From Thermopolyspora flexuosa (GTDB lineage: Bacteria; Actinomycetota; Actinomycetes; Streptosporangiales; Streptosporangiaceae), in the NCBI RefSeq assembly GCF_006716785.1, contig NZ_VFPQ01000001.1, positions 3,596,001-3,660,000 of the forward strand: a stretch of DNA of 64,000 nt, read 5' to 3'. The notes under the pieces are model-generated. The model saw only the letters and a list, made by a program, of their open reading frames with translations. It had not been told where the DNA came from and did no database searches. Both the position numbers and the translations under genes were made by a program. Of the stretch, positions 17,414 to 44,465 are shown one piece after another (the stretch's first letter is position 1; every line of letters starts with the position of its first letter).

Positions 17414-19387
17414 ATGGAGCGACCGCCCCCGGTACCCCCGGGAACAGGGCCGCTGTCGCCCGATTTCTCCGGGATGAATCCGGCCCTGATGGCCGAGTTC
17501 GTCGCGCTGCTGGAGAAGGCGCAGGCCGTTCTGCGGGAGGAGACGGGGGCGATACTCGCCGAGCTGGCGCGGGTCGGCGGCGACCGTACCCGTATGCTGC
17601 GCGTCCAGGACGTGGCGAACTGGGTGGAGCGGCAGCTTCCGGATCTGCGGCGTCGCGAGGAGCTGGCCCGCAAGACCGGCGCGCTGCCGTCCTGGACGCC
17701 CGGCGGCGGGCAAGGGCTGCGTCCGTTCGACGAGAGCGCCTTCGTCAGCGTGACCGAGGCCCGGCTGCGGGGCGCCGCCCTCGCCCGCTCGATCGGCGAC
17801 GTCTCCCCCTTCACCATCGGCGCCCGCGACAGGTACGCGACGTTCGTCAAGACGCTCGCCGAGCACGAGGACGACCCCGATTTCACCGCGGCGTTCTTCG
17901 CGGAACTCGGCCTGGAGAGCACGCTCGACCTCGGGCGGCGGCTGCGCGGCGCGCTGGGCGATGACGCCGATAAGGCGATCGACACGGTCAGCCGCGCGTT
18001 CGGCACGGCGATCCGCTCCGGCGGCGGCTCGCGCGCGTTCGCCCAGATGCGGGAACGGCTCGCCGCCGGGCCCGTTCTCACCAAGGCCGGAGGCGTGACG
18101 GTACGCAAACACGGCCTCGGCGATCTGCTGCGCGCGGGCGAGTTCCCCGCGGGTTGGCTCGCCGGCGTGGTCAACCGGCATGCCCTCGCCCCCGACAGCA
18201 ACGTCAGCGGCGAGGACCTCGCCGGCTTCCTCAACGCCCTCGGCAACAACCCTGCCGCGGCTCGCGCGGCGATCGCCGCGGCGACCCGCGACGTCCCCCT
18301 GGAGACCTTCCTCCGGCGGCTCAACGACCGGGTCGCGGTGCGGTCCAGCTTCGCCCATCAGGACCACCTTCAGGCCAAGGAGAACTCGCGGGCGGACGCC
18401 TTCGGCCGGATGCTCGCCGCCGCGGCGGGCGCGTACGACGAGCGGGACGGCGCGCACAGCGCCGAGGCCGCCAGGCTCGCGTTCGATCTCATCAGGACGT
18501 TGCCGAAGCTGGACATCGCCGAGCCCACCAGGGTGCACCTCGCCGAGATCGCCGGGGCGTACGCCACGGAGATCACCGAGGGGGCGAACCTCAGCGACGC
18601 CAACCGCACCCTGCCCAGCGCCTTCGGCGCGGTGAAGACCGTGGTCCCCGGGCTCAAACCGGCCTTCCGGCTGAGCCCGGCCGACACGTTCGCGTTCGTG
18701 AAGACGTTCGCCACCTCACCTGCAACGATCAAGCCCTTCGAGAAGGGCATGGGTGACCTCGCCGACCGGCTCGTCCGGGCCGCGGCCGACGGCGCCCGCG
18801 GCATCGAACCTCTGGAGCGGGTCATGCGCGCCCTGGGCCACGTCTCCGGCATGCAGTACGCCGCCGAGCGGCTGGTTCAGGGCGCCCTCGACGCCGAGGA
18901 CGAGGCGAGACGCAAAGGGCAATCCTTCCTACTGGGCCTCGCCCTCGGTGTGGCCGGGATCGTCGTACCGCTCGAGGGCCAGGCACTGTGGCTGGCCCTG
19001 AGCACCGGCGCCCCGCTCGCCTTCGACAAACTCACCGAGGTCGACAAGACGCGGCTGCAGGCACTCGACGACAAGGTACGGCTCGCCGCCCTGGCCCGCG
19101 GCCACTGGCTGGTCAACGCCCTCATTGACAGCGGCTTCAGACCGACCGTGCCCGCCACCGACCCGCGCTTCGCCCACCCGCCGATCACCGGCCCGGACGG
19201 CCGCCTGCTCCCCTTCGACCAGATCGCCAAGGACAAGCAGGCCCTCCGCAACCTCAACAACTGGCTCATCGCCAACGGCTCGGGCGGCACCTCAAAGACC
19301 AAACTCGGCGAGGCGGCGAAATGGCTGGACGAGATCGTCTTCAACGGGGCACGCGCGACCTCAGCCCAAGATCCAGCACCCCACTGA
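17414..19387 (+). CDS. Large DUF6571-like protein, copy A
   Basis: 657 residues, mostly helical. I assign it to the actinobacterial DUF6571-like group found with WXG100-like proteins; function unknown. An N-terminal coiled segment (MAEFVALLEKAQAVLREE) may be the WXG-like helical hairpin. Middle blocks include FRLSPADTFAFVKTFA and the C-terminal half a hydrophobic Gly/Ala stretch (about 505-535, LLGLALGVAGIVVPLEG) that could be a membrane-inserting hairpin, then KVRLAALARGHWLVNALIDSGF. It is a clear paralogue of the protein at 42017-43981 (shared LSP.DT..F..TF, AAA.LG..SG.Q and ..A.GF blocks). No ribosome site is strong; ATG 17474 is an alternative start. Confidence 0.78.
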   Translation: MERPPPVPPGTGPLSPDFSGMNPALMAEFVALLEKAQAVLREETGAILAELARVGGDRTRMLRVQDVANWVERQLPDLRRREELARKTGALPSWTPGGGQGLRPFDESAFVSVTEARLRGAALARSIGDVSPFTIGARDRYATFVKTLAEHEDDPDFTAAFFAELGLESTLDLGRRLRGALGDDADKAIDTVSRAFGTAIRSGGGSRAFAQMRERLAAGPVLTKAGGVTVRKHGLGDLLRAGEFPAGWLAGVVNRHALAPDSNVSGEDLAGFLNALGNNPAAARAAIAAATRDVPLETFLRRLNDRVAVRSSFAHQDHLQAKENSRADAFGRMLAAAAGAYDERDGAHSAEAARLAFDLIRTLPKLDIAEPTRVHLAEIAGAYATEITEGANLSDANRTLPSAFGAVKTVVPGLKPAFRLSPADTFAFVKTFATSPATIKPFEKGMGDLADRLVRAAADGARGIEPLERVMRALGHVSGMQYAAERLVQGALDAEDEARRKGQSFLLGLALGVAGIVVPLEGQALWLALSTGAPLAFDKLTEVDKTRLQALDDKVRLAALARGHWLVNALIDSGFRPTVPATDPRFAHPPITGPDGRLLPFDQIAKDKQALRNLNNWLIANGSGGTSKTKLGEAAKWLDEIVFNGARATSAQDPAPH

Positions 19388-19399
19388 TCTCGCCTGTTA

Positions 19400-19855
19400 T
19401 CACTCGATCGGGAGGCACTCGGTCCGGCCGTTTACCACATAGCGTTTCTCGCCCGGAGATTCTATGGTGATCCGCGTACGGGCGGTGGTGCTGACGAGCT
19501 CACGTTTAGTATCGCCGAGTTTGGCGTCGGTAAGCGTGTAGTCACCGAGCGCGGTCAGGCCACCGACCATATTGGTGACCAGCCCTTCCGGGTCACCCGA
19601 CCCGAAGTTGTCCACTCCGGTCGCACCATAGGTCTGCATTGCCCGGTTTTCCCCACAGGGGATGTTTTTCCCTCCCGGGTCGGTGACCTTGATATCGGAG
19701 GCACGCACCCTTTCCAGCAGCTGGGTGATGTGCTGTTTCAGGATCGCTCCCGCCTCGGCTGCGGTGGGTTCGTCGGAGTTCCCATCGCCGCATCCGGCCA
19801 GCGCGAGCAAAGCAATGAAGATGAGCGAAACGGTGCGGCGTAATGAGTGTGCCAT
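19400..19855 (-). CDS. Small lipoprotein with KNIPCGE motif, copy A
   Basis: 151 residues. Signal peptide with lipobox LAGC (Cys about residue 22) and a mature domain of about 125 residues with two cysteines (GGKNIPCGENRAMQTYG and TECLPIE at the C-terminus), likely a disulfide. It is related to the lipoprotein at 43989-44465 (KDIPCGEGGFRRV, TACLSG). Each copy sits immediately 3' of, and convergent with, a DUF6571-like gene (12 bases here). GGAG lies 6 bases before ATG 19855. Function unknown; an envelope partner or immunity-like protein is possible. Confidence 0.8.
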   Translation of the reverse strand: MAHSLRRTVSLIFIALLALAGCGDGNSDEPTAAEAGAILKQHITQLLERVRASDIKVTDPGGKNIPCGENRAMQTYGATGVDNFGSGDPEGLVTNMVGGLTALGDYTLTDAKLGDTKRELVSTTARTRITIESPGEKRYVVNGRTECLPIE

Positions 19856-20309
19856 CACCTGCTCCCGTGGCCGACGACCGAATACCGAATGTGATCGTCG
19901 TGCGAGAAAGACCGATCCGTGTGATCGGCTGATCACGCGAACGAGGCCCGGGGAAGAACGTGCCTGACCTGATCCCTTGGCGAGCGACGGGGCCTCGATT
20001 GCACCTCCAACGGGTCGAGACCTCCCCACCTCATCACGTCGCGGCCAGCCCGACCACCAGCGGAAACACAGACACTGCGTAGCGCTGATGACGATCATCA
20101 CGCAGTCTAATCCACCGACAAGGCCGTGTCATGCTTTGAGTTCCAACACCATCTTCCGGCGGCCACTCTTCACTTAACGCCCGTAGCACAATGCGGACAT
20201 GACATGCCATTCTTGCGGCCAGCGCTGGCAATCACTGCGCGAATCACATACTGTTCGACCGAGAGGCACGGCGACTCTTGACGAAGTGCACGAATAGGCA
20301 GGAACTGAT
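19856..20309. other. Intergenic region with two hairpin elements
   Basis: No gene seen in 454 bases of lower GC. CCGATC/GATCGG (19912-19928, 5-base spacer) lies upstream of the lipoprotein and could be an operator. At 20074-20106 ACTGCG and CGCAGT enclose a second perfect stem, TGATGA/TCATCA with loop CGA, with a 6-base bulge on the 5' side. Confidence 0.4.
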
Positions 20310-20591
20310 ATGGAAAAGCTCGTTCCGAATCCTCGCTACGAGGAGCTGGAACGCGCTCTCGCCATGATGCGATCGCGGGGTGAAAGGTTGCAGGCCGCCT
20401 TGGATCCCGCGTTCGATGCCTTCACCTCCCGCGCGGTCTGGGTCGGGCCGGCCGCGAGAGCGTTCCGCGACGGGCTCGCCCACTACCGGAATCTGCTCAA
20501 GACGGCGGTCAACGACGTCATCGCCGACCTGGAAGCCCAGCTCGGATCCATCAGGCGGGAGATCCCACCCAACTCGATCCGGGGCGGCTGA
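20310..20591 (+). CDS. WXG100-like small helical protein, copy A
   Basis: 93 residues, predicted all-helical hairpin. AVWVGPAARAFRDGL at about residues 45-59 is the W-x-G turn typical of WXG100/ESX substrates; AGGA lies upstream of the ATG. It is paralogous to the protein at 41630-41938: both begin LVPNPR/MVPNPR, followed by EEL/VEL and V-W-x-G-P. In copy B this gene lies directly before the DUF6571-like gene, whereas here it lies after the lipoprotein gene. It may be exported by a type VII system encoded elsewhere (inference). Confidence 0.78.
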   Translation: MEKLVPNPRYEELERALAMMRSRGERLQAALDPAFDAFTSRAVWVGPAARAFRDGLAHYRNLLKTAVNDVIADLEAQLGSIRREIPPNSIRGG

Positions 20592-41629: not shown

Positions 41630-41938
41630 ATGGCCGAGCGAATGGTGCCCAACCCTCGGCATGTGGAGCTGAAGGCGCTGCTGGCCGAGGTGGCGGAGCG
41701 GGCGCGCGAGGCCCGCGACGCCTACCGGCCCGCCGCGGAGGCGATGGGATCGGGCAAGGTGTGGACCGGGCCCACCGCCCGGCGGTGGCGGGACGAGCTG
41801 GAGGACCGGCACCGCCGGCTGGCGGCCGCGACCCGGCAGGTGACGGCCGCGATCGAGGCGGAGCTGCGGCGCCACCCCGAGCTCGTCACCGAGAGCGAGG
41901 CGGACGCCATCCGGAGGCAGCGCAGCGGCAGGCTGTGA
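41630..41938 (+). CDS. WXG100-like small helical protein, copy B
   Basis: 102 residues, helical hairpin with VWTGPTARRWRDEL at about residues 44-57 as the W-x-G-type turn. AAGGGA lies about 8 bases before ATG 41630. It is paralogous to the protein at 20310-20591 (shared MVPNPR/LVPNPR N-terminus and V-W-x-G-P). It precedes the DUF6571-like gene by 78 bases in the same direction, so the two are probably co-expressed and may form an exported pair. Confidence 0.8.
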   Translation: MAERMVPNPRHVELKALLAEVAERAREARDAYRPAAEAMGSGKVWTGPTARRWRDELEDRHRRLAAATRQVTAAIEAELRRHPELVTESEADAIRRQRSGRL

Positions 41939-42016
41939 CGTGCGGTACGGCCGGGCCGTCGCCTCGCCCGCGCGGGAAGCGGTGCCCGGCGCCGACCTGT
42001 CCGGGAGGGACGCTCC

Positions 42017-43981
42017 ATGGGAGCCACGAGTGAGTTCTGCGGCATCGACCCCGACGAGATGGGCCGCCTCGCCGGGGTGCTCGCCACGGGCTCGGACCGG
42101 CTGGCGGCGTTCCACCAGGAGGTCGGCCGCAGGCTGCGCGAGCACGGCATCCACGTCCCCGCGCTCCGGGAGATCGCCGACATCGCCGGGTGGGGCCGCG
42201 GACAGGTGCCGATGCTCCGGGAGCGGGCGCGGCTCATCCGGGCGCTGAACGCCGACCCCGGCCTGGGGACGAGCGCGGCTCCGGGCATGCTGCGGCTGCC
42301 GGACCGGCTGGCGGACTACGAGCGCGCGCAGAGCCTCGCCCGCATGTACGGGCAGGACATCTTCGTCAACTTCAGCGGCGAGTTCCAGGGCAAACTCATC
42401 CACGCCCACATCAAGGAGATCGAACGCCTCGCGGAGAACCCGCACGCGGCCGCCGCCTTCTTCGCGCTGCTCCCGCCGAAGATCCGCGACAACCTGCCCA
42501 CGCTGATCGCGAGCACCGGCAGCCCGACCGCGAAGGAGGACGTCGCGGCCTTCGGCAAGGCCCTCGGCGCGGCCCTGCGGGCGCCGGTCCTGGTGCCCGC
42601 GTTCGGCAAGGTCAGGAGCGACCTGCTGCGCCCGGCCCCGAACCGGCCCGTCGCGTGGAACCGGCTCGCCCTGCTCCGGCACGCCGACGCGCCCTCGGAC
42701 GTGCGCAGCGCGGCGGCCCGTGCGCTGGTGCTCGACGACTTCGTGCGCACGCCGTACCAGGAGTGGCGTGCGGCCGGGACCGGCGAGGCGAAGGCGCTCG
42801 GCCTGCCCGCCGACCTCGTCAGCCTCGGCCTCGAGGTCCTCGCCGGGGACGGCGCTGCGGCCCGGGACGCCTTCTCCCGGGTGGGCGGGGACGACGTCAG
42901 GCTCACCCAGGTCGACAAGATGCGGCGGTTCCTCGCCTACGCACGGTGGAGCGGCCACGGGGACGACATCGCCGACGCCTTCGGCCGCGTGATCGAGGCC
43001 GGCGCCGAGGTGCACACCGAAAAGCCCGGCAGGCACAGCCCACCCGCCGCCGCCTTCGCCCTGGACGCCATCAAGGCCGCAGGCTCCTTCGGCGACGCCA
43101 TCCCCGAACGCGCCCGCGACTCCATGGCCACCCTCGCCAAGTCCTACATCCACGAACTGGCCTCAGGCGCCCGCTTCGATAAGGCCATTGACCGGACCTC
43201 CGGCATGAGCGTCCCAGACGACTGGACGCACATCCCGGGGGTAACTCCCTCCTTCTACCTGAGTCCCGGCGACACCTACCGCTTCTTACAGACCTTCGTG
43301 GGCGACAACGGCCTCGCCGACGACTTCGACATCGCGGCCGGGCGATTCCGGAACGAGATTTTGATCACCACGGCCAAGTCGGATGCCCGACGCGGCACAC
43401 ATCATTTCGAGGATGCGGCCGCGATGCTCGGCGACCTGGCAGGCCTACAGTTCAAGGCCACGCTGGACGTACGAGGAGAGCAGGACGCGACCGGTGATCT
43501 GGTCCGTGATCTCACGAAGAACTCGGTATCTCTCGGCATTGACCAGATTCCGGTCGCGGGAGCTCTCAAGGCCGCTTGGGATGTGACGAAGGCCTACATC
43601 GTCAGCAGTGGTCTGGATGCTTGGGGCGAGAGCTTCAAAACTCACGTGGAGCGGGTGACCGGCGCACGAGCGGACTTCGTCAAACGACAGAAATACGATC
43701 TGGCCCAGATCCTGCACCGCGCTGGGTTTCCATCAAGCGAGCCTCCGCCTGAACTCATCAGCAAGACCACCGGAGAACTCAAGACCTACGATGAACTCCT
43801 TCAGGAGGCCAAGCGCGAGGCCAAGGACGGCGGCCGACCGTGGGAACAGGTATTGAAGGAGAAACTCACGCCCTACGAACGGTGGCTGGACGGTAACCAC
43901 GAGCTCGACAAGAAGAGCGAGTACTCCTCGCGGATGCAGTCCAGTGAGTATGCGAAGGAACAGATCGGAATCTGGGATTAA
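42017..43981 (+). CDS. Large DUF6571-like protein, copy B
   Basis: 654 residues, helical, paralogous to the protein at 17414-19387. Shared blocks include FYLSPGDTYRFLQTF, AAAMLGDLAGLQFKA and LAQILHRAGF near the C-terminus. The hydrophobic C-terminal segment of copy A is replaced by NSVSLGIDQIPVAGALKAA, which is weaker. The final about 100 residues are charged and distinct, and the DNA from about 43350 onwards has visibly lower GC than the 5' part, suggesting a C-terminal exchange as in polymorphic effectors (inference). No known toxin motif was recognised. It ends 8 bases before a convergent lipoprotein gene. Confidence 0.78.
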   Translation: MGATSEFCGIDPDEMGRLAGVLATGSDRLAAFHQEVGRRLREHGIHVPALREIADIAGWGRGQVPMLRERARLIRALNADPGLGTSAAPGMLRLPDRLADYERAQSLARMYGQDIFVNFSGEFQGKLIHAHIKEIERLAENPHAAAAFFALLPPKIRDNLPTLIASTGSPTAKEDVAAFGKALGAALRAPVLVPAFGKVRSDLLRPAPNRPVAWNRLALLRHADAPSDVRSAAARALVLDDFVRTPYQEWRAAGTGEAKALGLPADLVSLGLEVLAGDGAAARDAFSRVGGDDVRLTQVDKMRRFLAYARWSGHGDDIADAFGRVIEAGAEVHTEKPGRHSPPAAAFALDAIKAAGSFGDAIPERARDSMATLAKSYIHELASGARFDKAIDRTSGMSVPDDWTHIPGVTPSFYLSPGDTYRFLQTFVGDNGLADDFDIAAGRFRNEILITTAKSDARRGTHHFEDAAAMLGDLAGLQFKATLDVRGEQDATGDLVRDLTKNSVSLGIDQIPVAGALKAAWDVTKAYIVSSGLDAWGESFKTHVERVTGARADFVKRQKYDLAQILHRAGFPSSEPPPELISKTTGELKTYDELLQEAKREAKDGGRPWEQVLKEKLTPYERWLDGNHELDKKSEYSSRMQSSEYAKEQIGIWD

Positions 43982-43988
43982 GCGGCGG

Positions 43989-44465
43989 CTATCCCGAGAG
44001 ACAGGCAGTCATTATTTGCAGCCTCCATGTCGGTTTTTCTGGTGAGACGTAGGCGCTCACTTGGAGGCCCGCATCCTTCTTCTCCCCCTGAATGAAGCGT
44101 CCTTCCTGCGCGTCCTGCTGCCCAGGATCCAAGGCCAGCTCATATCCAAAATCCTGGGCGAGAACGTTCTCCATGAGACGCTGGGCGCGATCCAGATGGG
44201 AATCCACCGCGTCATCATCGCGATCCTCGTTCGCGGTGGCTCTCATCACACGCCGGAACCCTCCCTCTCCGCAGGGTATGTCCTTGTCGCCTCGTTGCAG
44301 GATACGCAGCTCGAGCAGCGGATTCTTGAAGAACTCGTGTGACTCCAGACGCTGCACATCCTTCTGCAGCTCTGCCGCCGCATCCTCAAACGACGGCTCG
44401 CCGGAGGAACAGCTCACCGCCAATGCCAGCGGCAAAAGGATAGCCAGCGATCGGACGGCGCGCAC
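43989..44465 (-). CDS. Small lipoprotein with KDIPCGE motif, copy B
   Basis: 158 residues from GTG 44465, chosen because GGAGGT lies directly upstream. Signal peptide with lipobox AVSC (Cys 19) and a mature domain with GDKDIPCGEGGFRRV and a C-terminal TACLSG; the two cysteines match those of the lipoprotein at 19400-19855. As in copy A it is convergent with a DUF6571-like gene. GC is lower than the surroundings. Function unknown. Confidence 0.8.
   Translation of the reverse strand: MRAVRSLAILLPLALAVSCSSGEPSFEDAAAELQKDVQRLESHEFFKNPLLELRILQRGDKDIPCGEGGFRRVMRATANEDRDDDAVDSHLDRAQRLMENVLAQDFGYELALDPGQQDAQEGRFIQGEKKDAGLQVSAYVSPEKPTWRLQIMTACLSG

Follow-up and report, generated by a model that had tools for sequence, protein, structure and literature searches.

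A conserved three-gene cassette was found in Thermopolyspora flexuosa, on a stretch of 64,000 nucleotides (assembly GCF_006716785.1, contig NZ_VFPQ01000001.1, positions 3,596,001 to 3,660,000) that is referred to here as the window. The cassette comprises genes for a large helical protein (BIG), a lipoprotein (LIP) and a small WXG100-like protein (WXG). It is real and far from chance, and its uncharacterised genes stay together in many soil actinobacteria. We consider it on balance probable that BIG is a type VII effector, WXG its export partner and LIP a cognate lipoprotein, probably conferring immunity.

All three genes that a sequence-only reading had placed at 17414-20591 were recovered there as set A. 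BIG-A (17414-19387, forward strand) encodes an all-helical DUF6571-like protein of 657 aa in which no signal peptide was seen. Its start site is common to one close relative. LIP-A (19400-19855, reverse strand, 151 aa) is convergent with BIG-A, with 12 bp between the genes. It had been described as a disulfide-type lipoprotein, and it does carry the lipobox LALAGC, with L-A-G-C read from the sequence at residues 19-22 (19790..19801, reverse strand), the motif KNIPCGE and two other invariant cysteines, C67 and C147. WXG-A (20310-20591, forward strand) is a WXG100-like protein of 93 aa, with the W-x-G motif at residues 44-46 (20439..20447, forward strand) within AVWVGPAARAF. The hydrophobic stretch reported for BIG-A was located at residues ~502-542 (18917..19039, forward strand), with a 19-residue mean hydropathy of 1.84 and the maximum at residue 502. 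It is a candidate membrane-interacting hairpin.

A homologous set with a changed gene order, set B, was present at 41630-44465. It lies ~21 kb downstream of set A, close to the 22 kb given by the earlier reading. WXG-B (41630-41938, forward strand, 102 aa, WXG100-like) is followed 78 bp downstream by BIG-B (42017-43981, forward strand, 654 aa), a paralogue of BIG-A. LIP-B (43989-44465, reverse strand) encodes a lipoprotein of 158 aa with the lipobox LALAVSC, has a GTG start behind GGAGG and is convergent with BIG-B, with 7 bp between them. Purine-rich stretches precede the starts of WXG-A, WXG-B and LIP-B. The order is WXG-BIG-LIP in set B as against BIG-LIP-WXG in set A (gene orders ARRANGEMENTS: set A, BIG> <LIP WXG>; set B, WXG> BIG> <LIP). 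In pairwise BLASTP, WXG-A and WXG-B showed 42% identity (E 8e-17), and the BIG and LIP copies matched weakly, with E 3e-4 and E 8e-5, respectively. Despite these weak pairwise matches, BIG-A and BIG-B as well as LIP-A and LIP-B were each united in a common profile family. The genome holds four BIG loci, namely sets A and B and two further copies. One of these, at C1:3003.9k and 45% identical, is accompanied by LIP, with no WXG found. The other, at C1:1496.6k, is of the DUF6571-proper type, with WXG present.

Co-occurrence of the three families was analysed in GTDB genomes, which were scanned with a set-A-like alignment. This yielded 68 loci found through BIG, mostly from Streptosporangiaceae (Nonomuraea, Streptosporangium, Microbispora, Planobispora, Acrocarpospora, Sphaerisporangium and others) and from Actinomadura. 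The profiles were built from earlier relatives, whose genomes contributed ~8 of the 68 loci; the remainder are independent. In 67/68 loci, LIP immediately followed BIG in convergent (tail-to-tail) orientation; the sole exception ends at a contig end. WXG was found in 59/68. The gap between BIG and LIP had a median of -4 bp over 65 loci, 33 of them overlapping. When loci were instead chosen through LIP, BIG or a BIG N-domain protein lay next to it in 19 of 20. Other actinobacterial families had WXG beside BIG or an N-domain relative in 39 of 40 loci, often with a 4-bp overlap. Apart from syntenic genes, which reached at most 14/68 loci, no further gene family recurred in the neighbourhood. In DUF6571-proper loci, BIG was followed in some cases by an unrelated lipoprotein and then by WXG. 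The actinobacterial family f21 showed the order WXG>BIG>, often with 4-bp overlaps, and in several loci a lipoprotein on the same strand came next. Membership of the trio is fixed, gene order is variable and the lipoprotein is replaceable by another family. The sequence-only reading had proposed a functional unit, to be abandoned if the families did not occur together in other genomes. They do, and the unit is strongly supported.

The unit itself, its conservation, the modular N-domain of BIG, the adjacency to an ATPase in other genomes and the co-divergence pattern were observed directly; secretion, binding, toxicity and immunity are inferred. WXG would pair with the N-terminal helical hairpin of BIG, and both together would form a composite targeting signal recognised by an EssC/EccC-like ATPase. 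BIG would then be exported by the EssC-like ATPase without a Sec signal. LIP would be exported via Sec, anchored on the outer face of the membrane and act as the cognate partner of the C-terminal half of BIG, most likely as an immunity protein protecting the membrane or envelope of the producer itself from BIG. A comparable organisation is known from Staphylococcus aureus TslA/TlaA/TilA (PMC10730906). There, a type VII lipase comes with a pair of small helical partners and with an immunity lipoprotein, of which extra homologues are encoded upstream. TslA/TlaA1-TlaA2/TilA shares with the trio a large type VII cargo, small helical partners, an immunity lipoprotein and extra homologues nearby, and a helical module of TslA pairs with the partners (PMC10730906), as is proposed here for BIG and WXG. 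TslA is a phospholipase from Bacillota with a C-terminal LXG-like domain, whereas BIG is all-helical, carries its hairpin N-terminally and lacks any known catalytic domain. The likeness is one of organisation, and no homology is claimed.

The divergence of WXG tracks the N-terminal hairpin of BIG, and that of LIP tracks the BIG C-terminus. Partial rank correlations over 72 complete trios, in which the relatedness of the sequences was only partly controlled, were 0.58 for WXG with the N-terminal 100 residues of BIG and 0.04 with the C-terminal 112 residues. LIP correlated at 0.42 with the C-terminus and at 0.34 with the N-terminus. The pattern was weaker in the 55 trios with set-A order (LIP-C 0.45, LIP-N 0.29, WXG-N 0.44, WXG-C 0.22). 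Because WXG lies 3' of BIG in this order, its match to the BIG N-terminus is not a linkage effect.

BIG-A matched DUF6571 (PF20211) with E 1.2e-5 and 24.5 bits, under the gathering cut-off of 27 bits, and BIG-B had no PF20211 match. Relatives in the BIG profile family exceeded the cut-off (L038, L066 and L171). The earlier label DUF6571-like therefore holds for the family, which the Pfam family overlaps; it is marginal for BIG-A and does not extend to BIG-B by its own score. Loci of the DUF6571-proper type differ in carrying a lipoprotein family other than LIP. A BIG model calculated from a 62-sequence alignment (mean pLDDT 86, pTM 0.83) comprised an N-terminal hairpin of residues 23-53 and 59-88 (17480..17677 in BIG-A, forward strand), followed by a nearly all-helical body. 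The hydrophobic segment (pLDDT about 31-53) was modelled with low confidence over residues 506-542; it makes a membrane target for BIG possible. The fold had no credible PDB match, with only generic helical-repeat proteins at TM 0.26 or less. The BIG N-domain is also joined to other C-terminal regions in other proteins. One protein of the window's genome, like one of the relative L067, is a fusion in which the BIG N-domain follows a WXG-like domain and precedes Abhydrolase_8; a gene for a small lipoprotein or lipoprotein-like protein lies alongside. BIG has the N-terminal helical hairpin with variable body that is expected of a type VII effector with a WXG partner, and this hairpin is proposed to pair with WXG and to serve as a module for type VII targeting.

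Residues W44 and G46 were invariant in 22 WXG homologues. In size (~100 aa), in the central W-x-G and in the position of the gene beside a larger protein, WXG is like WXG100/ESAT-6 (PF06013). It differs from that family in its conserved V-P-N-P start and in scoring under the Pfam cut-off, with 3 of 22 members matching at a best E of 0.12. With the WXG profile, EsxA-type structures were matched in the W register at E 0.02, a level at which chance matches also occurred, and WXG matched a canonical WXG100 from the window's own genome. The description as WXG100-like can be kept on the basis of the invariant motif and these two matches, although Pfam membership was not attained.

A signal peptide with a lipobox cysteine was present in LIP-A and LIP-B; the homologue L048 has no such cysteine. 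The mature part of LIP was modelled at about pLDDT 97. A Foldseek search returned the DUF4853 protein 4mjg (probability 1.00, TM 0.54, E 3e-3) and Mycobacterium tuberculosis LppA (PDB 2v7s; probability 0.91, TM 0.44, E 5e-2). LppA had been suspected before the fold search returned it, and the scores are moderate. These are the best recognisable folds for LIP, which is predicted to resemble LppA/DUF4853 in fold. This is a resemblance, not proof of descent, as LIP has no significant sequence match to either. No PDB or Pfam sequence matched LIP as a direct homologue. Our literature search found no functional study of LppA, judged by titles, and nothing relevant on LppV/Rv2797c. LppA-type genes presumably stand beside DUF1023 genes in M. 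tuberculosis.

Extra LIP copies were located next to a single BIG in about seven loci (L057, L108/L222, L123, L125, L129 and L186; farther off in L097/L223), and an orphan LIP was detected at L218. In DUF6571-proper loci, LIP is replaced by an unrelated lipoprotein. Three loci (L044, L127 and L130) had BIG split by frame breaks into overlapping frames and the neighbouring LIP open, which is either a decayed effector with its lipoprotein kept or a sequencing error. Because of the extra copies, the orphan and the open LIP beside split BIG, immunity is preferred over a receptor function.

WXG with BIG or an N-domain protein adjoins an EssC/EccC-like FtsK/SpoIIIE ATPase in five genomes (L164, L168, L171, L174 and L179). 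This adjacency ties the WXG-BIG pair to type VII secretion. The five loci belong to another family and may share one ancestral locus, hence representing fewer than five independent events. At L171, the ATPase scored 620 bits against NCBIfam EssC and the BIG or N-domain protein passed the DUF6571 cut-off. The clusters at L164 and L174 also contain a lipoprotein. In a set of 60 genomes, protein-level BIG matches occurred in 15, each of which also has an EccC/EssC-like ATPase, and BIG was absent from all 15 genomes lacking such an ATPase (p = 0.0065 over the 60 genomes and 0.0066 within the window's family alone, both before correction for relatedness).

The sequence-only reading had implied dependence on ESX and suggested a secretion assay in an ESX mutant. 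In the window's genome, EccB is missing and no EccCa scored above its cut-off, so the core of an ESX (type VIIa) system is lacking. EccB is also missing from six other carriers. The window's genome does have a pair of EssC-like ATPases, 1974 and 1501 aa long and encoded near C1:4.27 and 4.29 Mb. They matched TIGR03928 (E 6e-168 and 2e-151) without reaching the equivalog cut-off, and each has a canonical WXG100 gene close by. Classical ESX was rejected as a requirement because the window's genome is without EccB, yet has these two ATPases with their WXG100 genes. An ESX mutant is unsuitable as a test, since the host and several carriers are without EccB, a core ESX component. The implied ESX dependence holds only in part; the linkage detected is one to EssC/EccC-like ATPases. 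The ATPase genes are located at L142:10346-16270 and L143:7296-11801 (C1:4.26-4.29 Mb). The longer protein has an insert of roughly 150 aa of low complexity after the Walker region; an intein was rejected in favour of a low-complexity linker.

Several observations weigh against an effector with an immunity lipoprotein. No toxin or enzyme domain was found in BIG using Pfam, NCBIfam and fold search. Whereas classical polymorphic toxins have C-termini that are exchanged among close relatives, the BIG C-terminus is conserved in the alignment. The convergent orientation of LIP in the window's family is also unusual for an immunity gene. The differences in co-divergence are modest, and 2% and 5% of subsamples reverse them. 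A membrane hairpin is not general in BIG, judging by a hydrophobic segment that is weak in most homologues and reaches hydropathy 1.6 in only 24/72. None of 120 loci from the window's family and its relatives had an ATPase gene nearby. Genome G050, in which no EccC/EssC-like ATPase was found, has an N-domain protein (L172), detected with a more sensitive profile.

The conserved C-terminus and the toxin domain not found in BIG would also suit a type VII secreted but non-toxic surface or envelope protein, such as a scaffold, adhesin or developmental factor, with LIP as membrane-anchored receptor or docking partner. The one-to-one pairing of LIP and BIG across many genera points the same way, and co-divergence of LIP with the BIG C-terminus is likewise expected of a receptor pair. 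We give this alternative a limited but real chance; the extra and orphan LIP copies and the exchange of the lipoprotein for one of an unrelated family are more immunity-like, and the closest system studied by experiment pairs a toxin with an immunity lipoprotein (PMC10730906). BIG and WXG could also be cytoplasmic or membrane-associated partners without type VII export, the WXG likeness being that of a generic helical hairpin. This would agree with the missing EccB in the window's genome and the six other carriers, the weak Pfam WXG100 match, the trio lying away from any ATPase in the window's family and the N-domain protein in the ATPase-less genome. It is made improbable by the ATPase adjacency in the five other genomes, the nested distribution of BIG and ATPase, the W-x-G register match to EsxA structures and the surface lipoprotein as obligate partner. 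Mere shared synteny, meaning block inheritance without joint function, could draw on the origin of most loci from related genera and is hardly credible, as the trio persists while flanking genes vary among loci, order changes while membership does not, the same pairing is seen in other families and genomes carry several paralogous trios.

Through the cassette, three orphan families (DUF6571-like, WXG-like small protein and putative LppA-fold lipoprotein) become one testable system. The trio is tied to an EssC-like secretion ATPase in organisms without classical ESX. A hypothesis is also offered for the role of LppA-type lipoproteins, for which the literature search found no described role. As far as this search goes, the cassette is undescribed as a unit, with no paper mentioning DUF6571 and nothing joining DUF1023 and WXG100; it is most likely a variant of the type VII effector-partner-immunity kind. 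Actinobacterial Abhydrolase_8 (DUF1023) proteins resemble the trio in having WXG-like partners and lipoprotein-like neighbours, and loci L230 and L233 show the order small partner - hydrolase - lipoprotein-like. They have a hydrolase body, as against the DUF6571-like body of BIG. Their lipoprotein-like neighbours matched LIP weakly or not at all and were rejected as direct LIP homologues. It is conceivable, if rather doubtful, that EssC-type (type VIIb-like) cassettes for interbacterial effectors are numerous in actinobacteria and have so far escaped description. Each would consist of a WXG partner, an immunity lipoprotein of LppA/DUF4853 fold and an effector in which the hairpin is the tag of exchangeable bodies, either a new all-helical fold or an alpha/beta hydrolase. 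If true, the LppA-type lipoproteins of mycobacteria would likewise serve in immunity.

Further arrangements of these families were observed. The fusion of WXG-like domain, BIG N-domain and Abhydrolase_8 is located at L227:1132-3018 (C1:2289 kb of the window's genome) and is followed by a small gene encoding 135 aa. The N-domain protein L172 of G050 is flanked by two WXG100-like genes. A protein of ~355-383 aa in six loci (L168, L169, L170, L171, L178 and L179) combines a glycine-rich part at the N-terminus with the BIG N-domain close to the C-terminus. It is paired with a WXG-like gene, often beside one conserved neighbour of 640 aa, and some of its loci have an EssC-like ATPase. Three tandem BIG-related genes, closely similar and encoding ~637 aa each, were present at L183:3601-9561.

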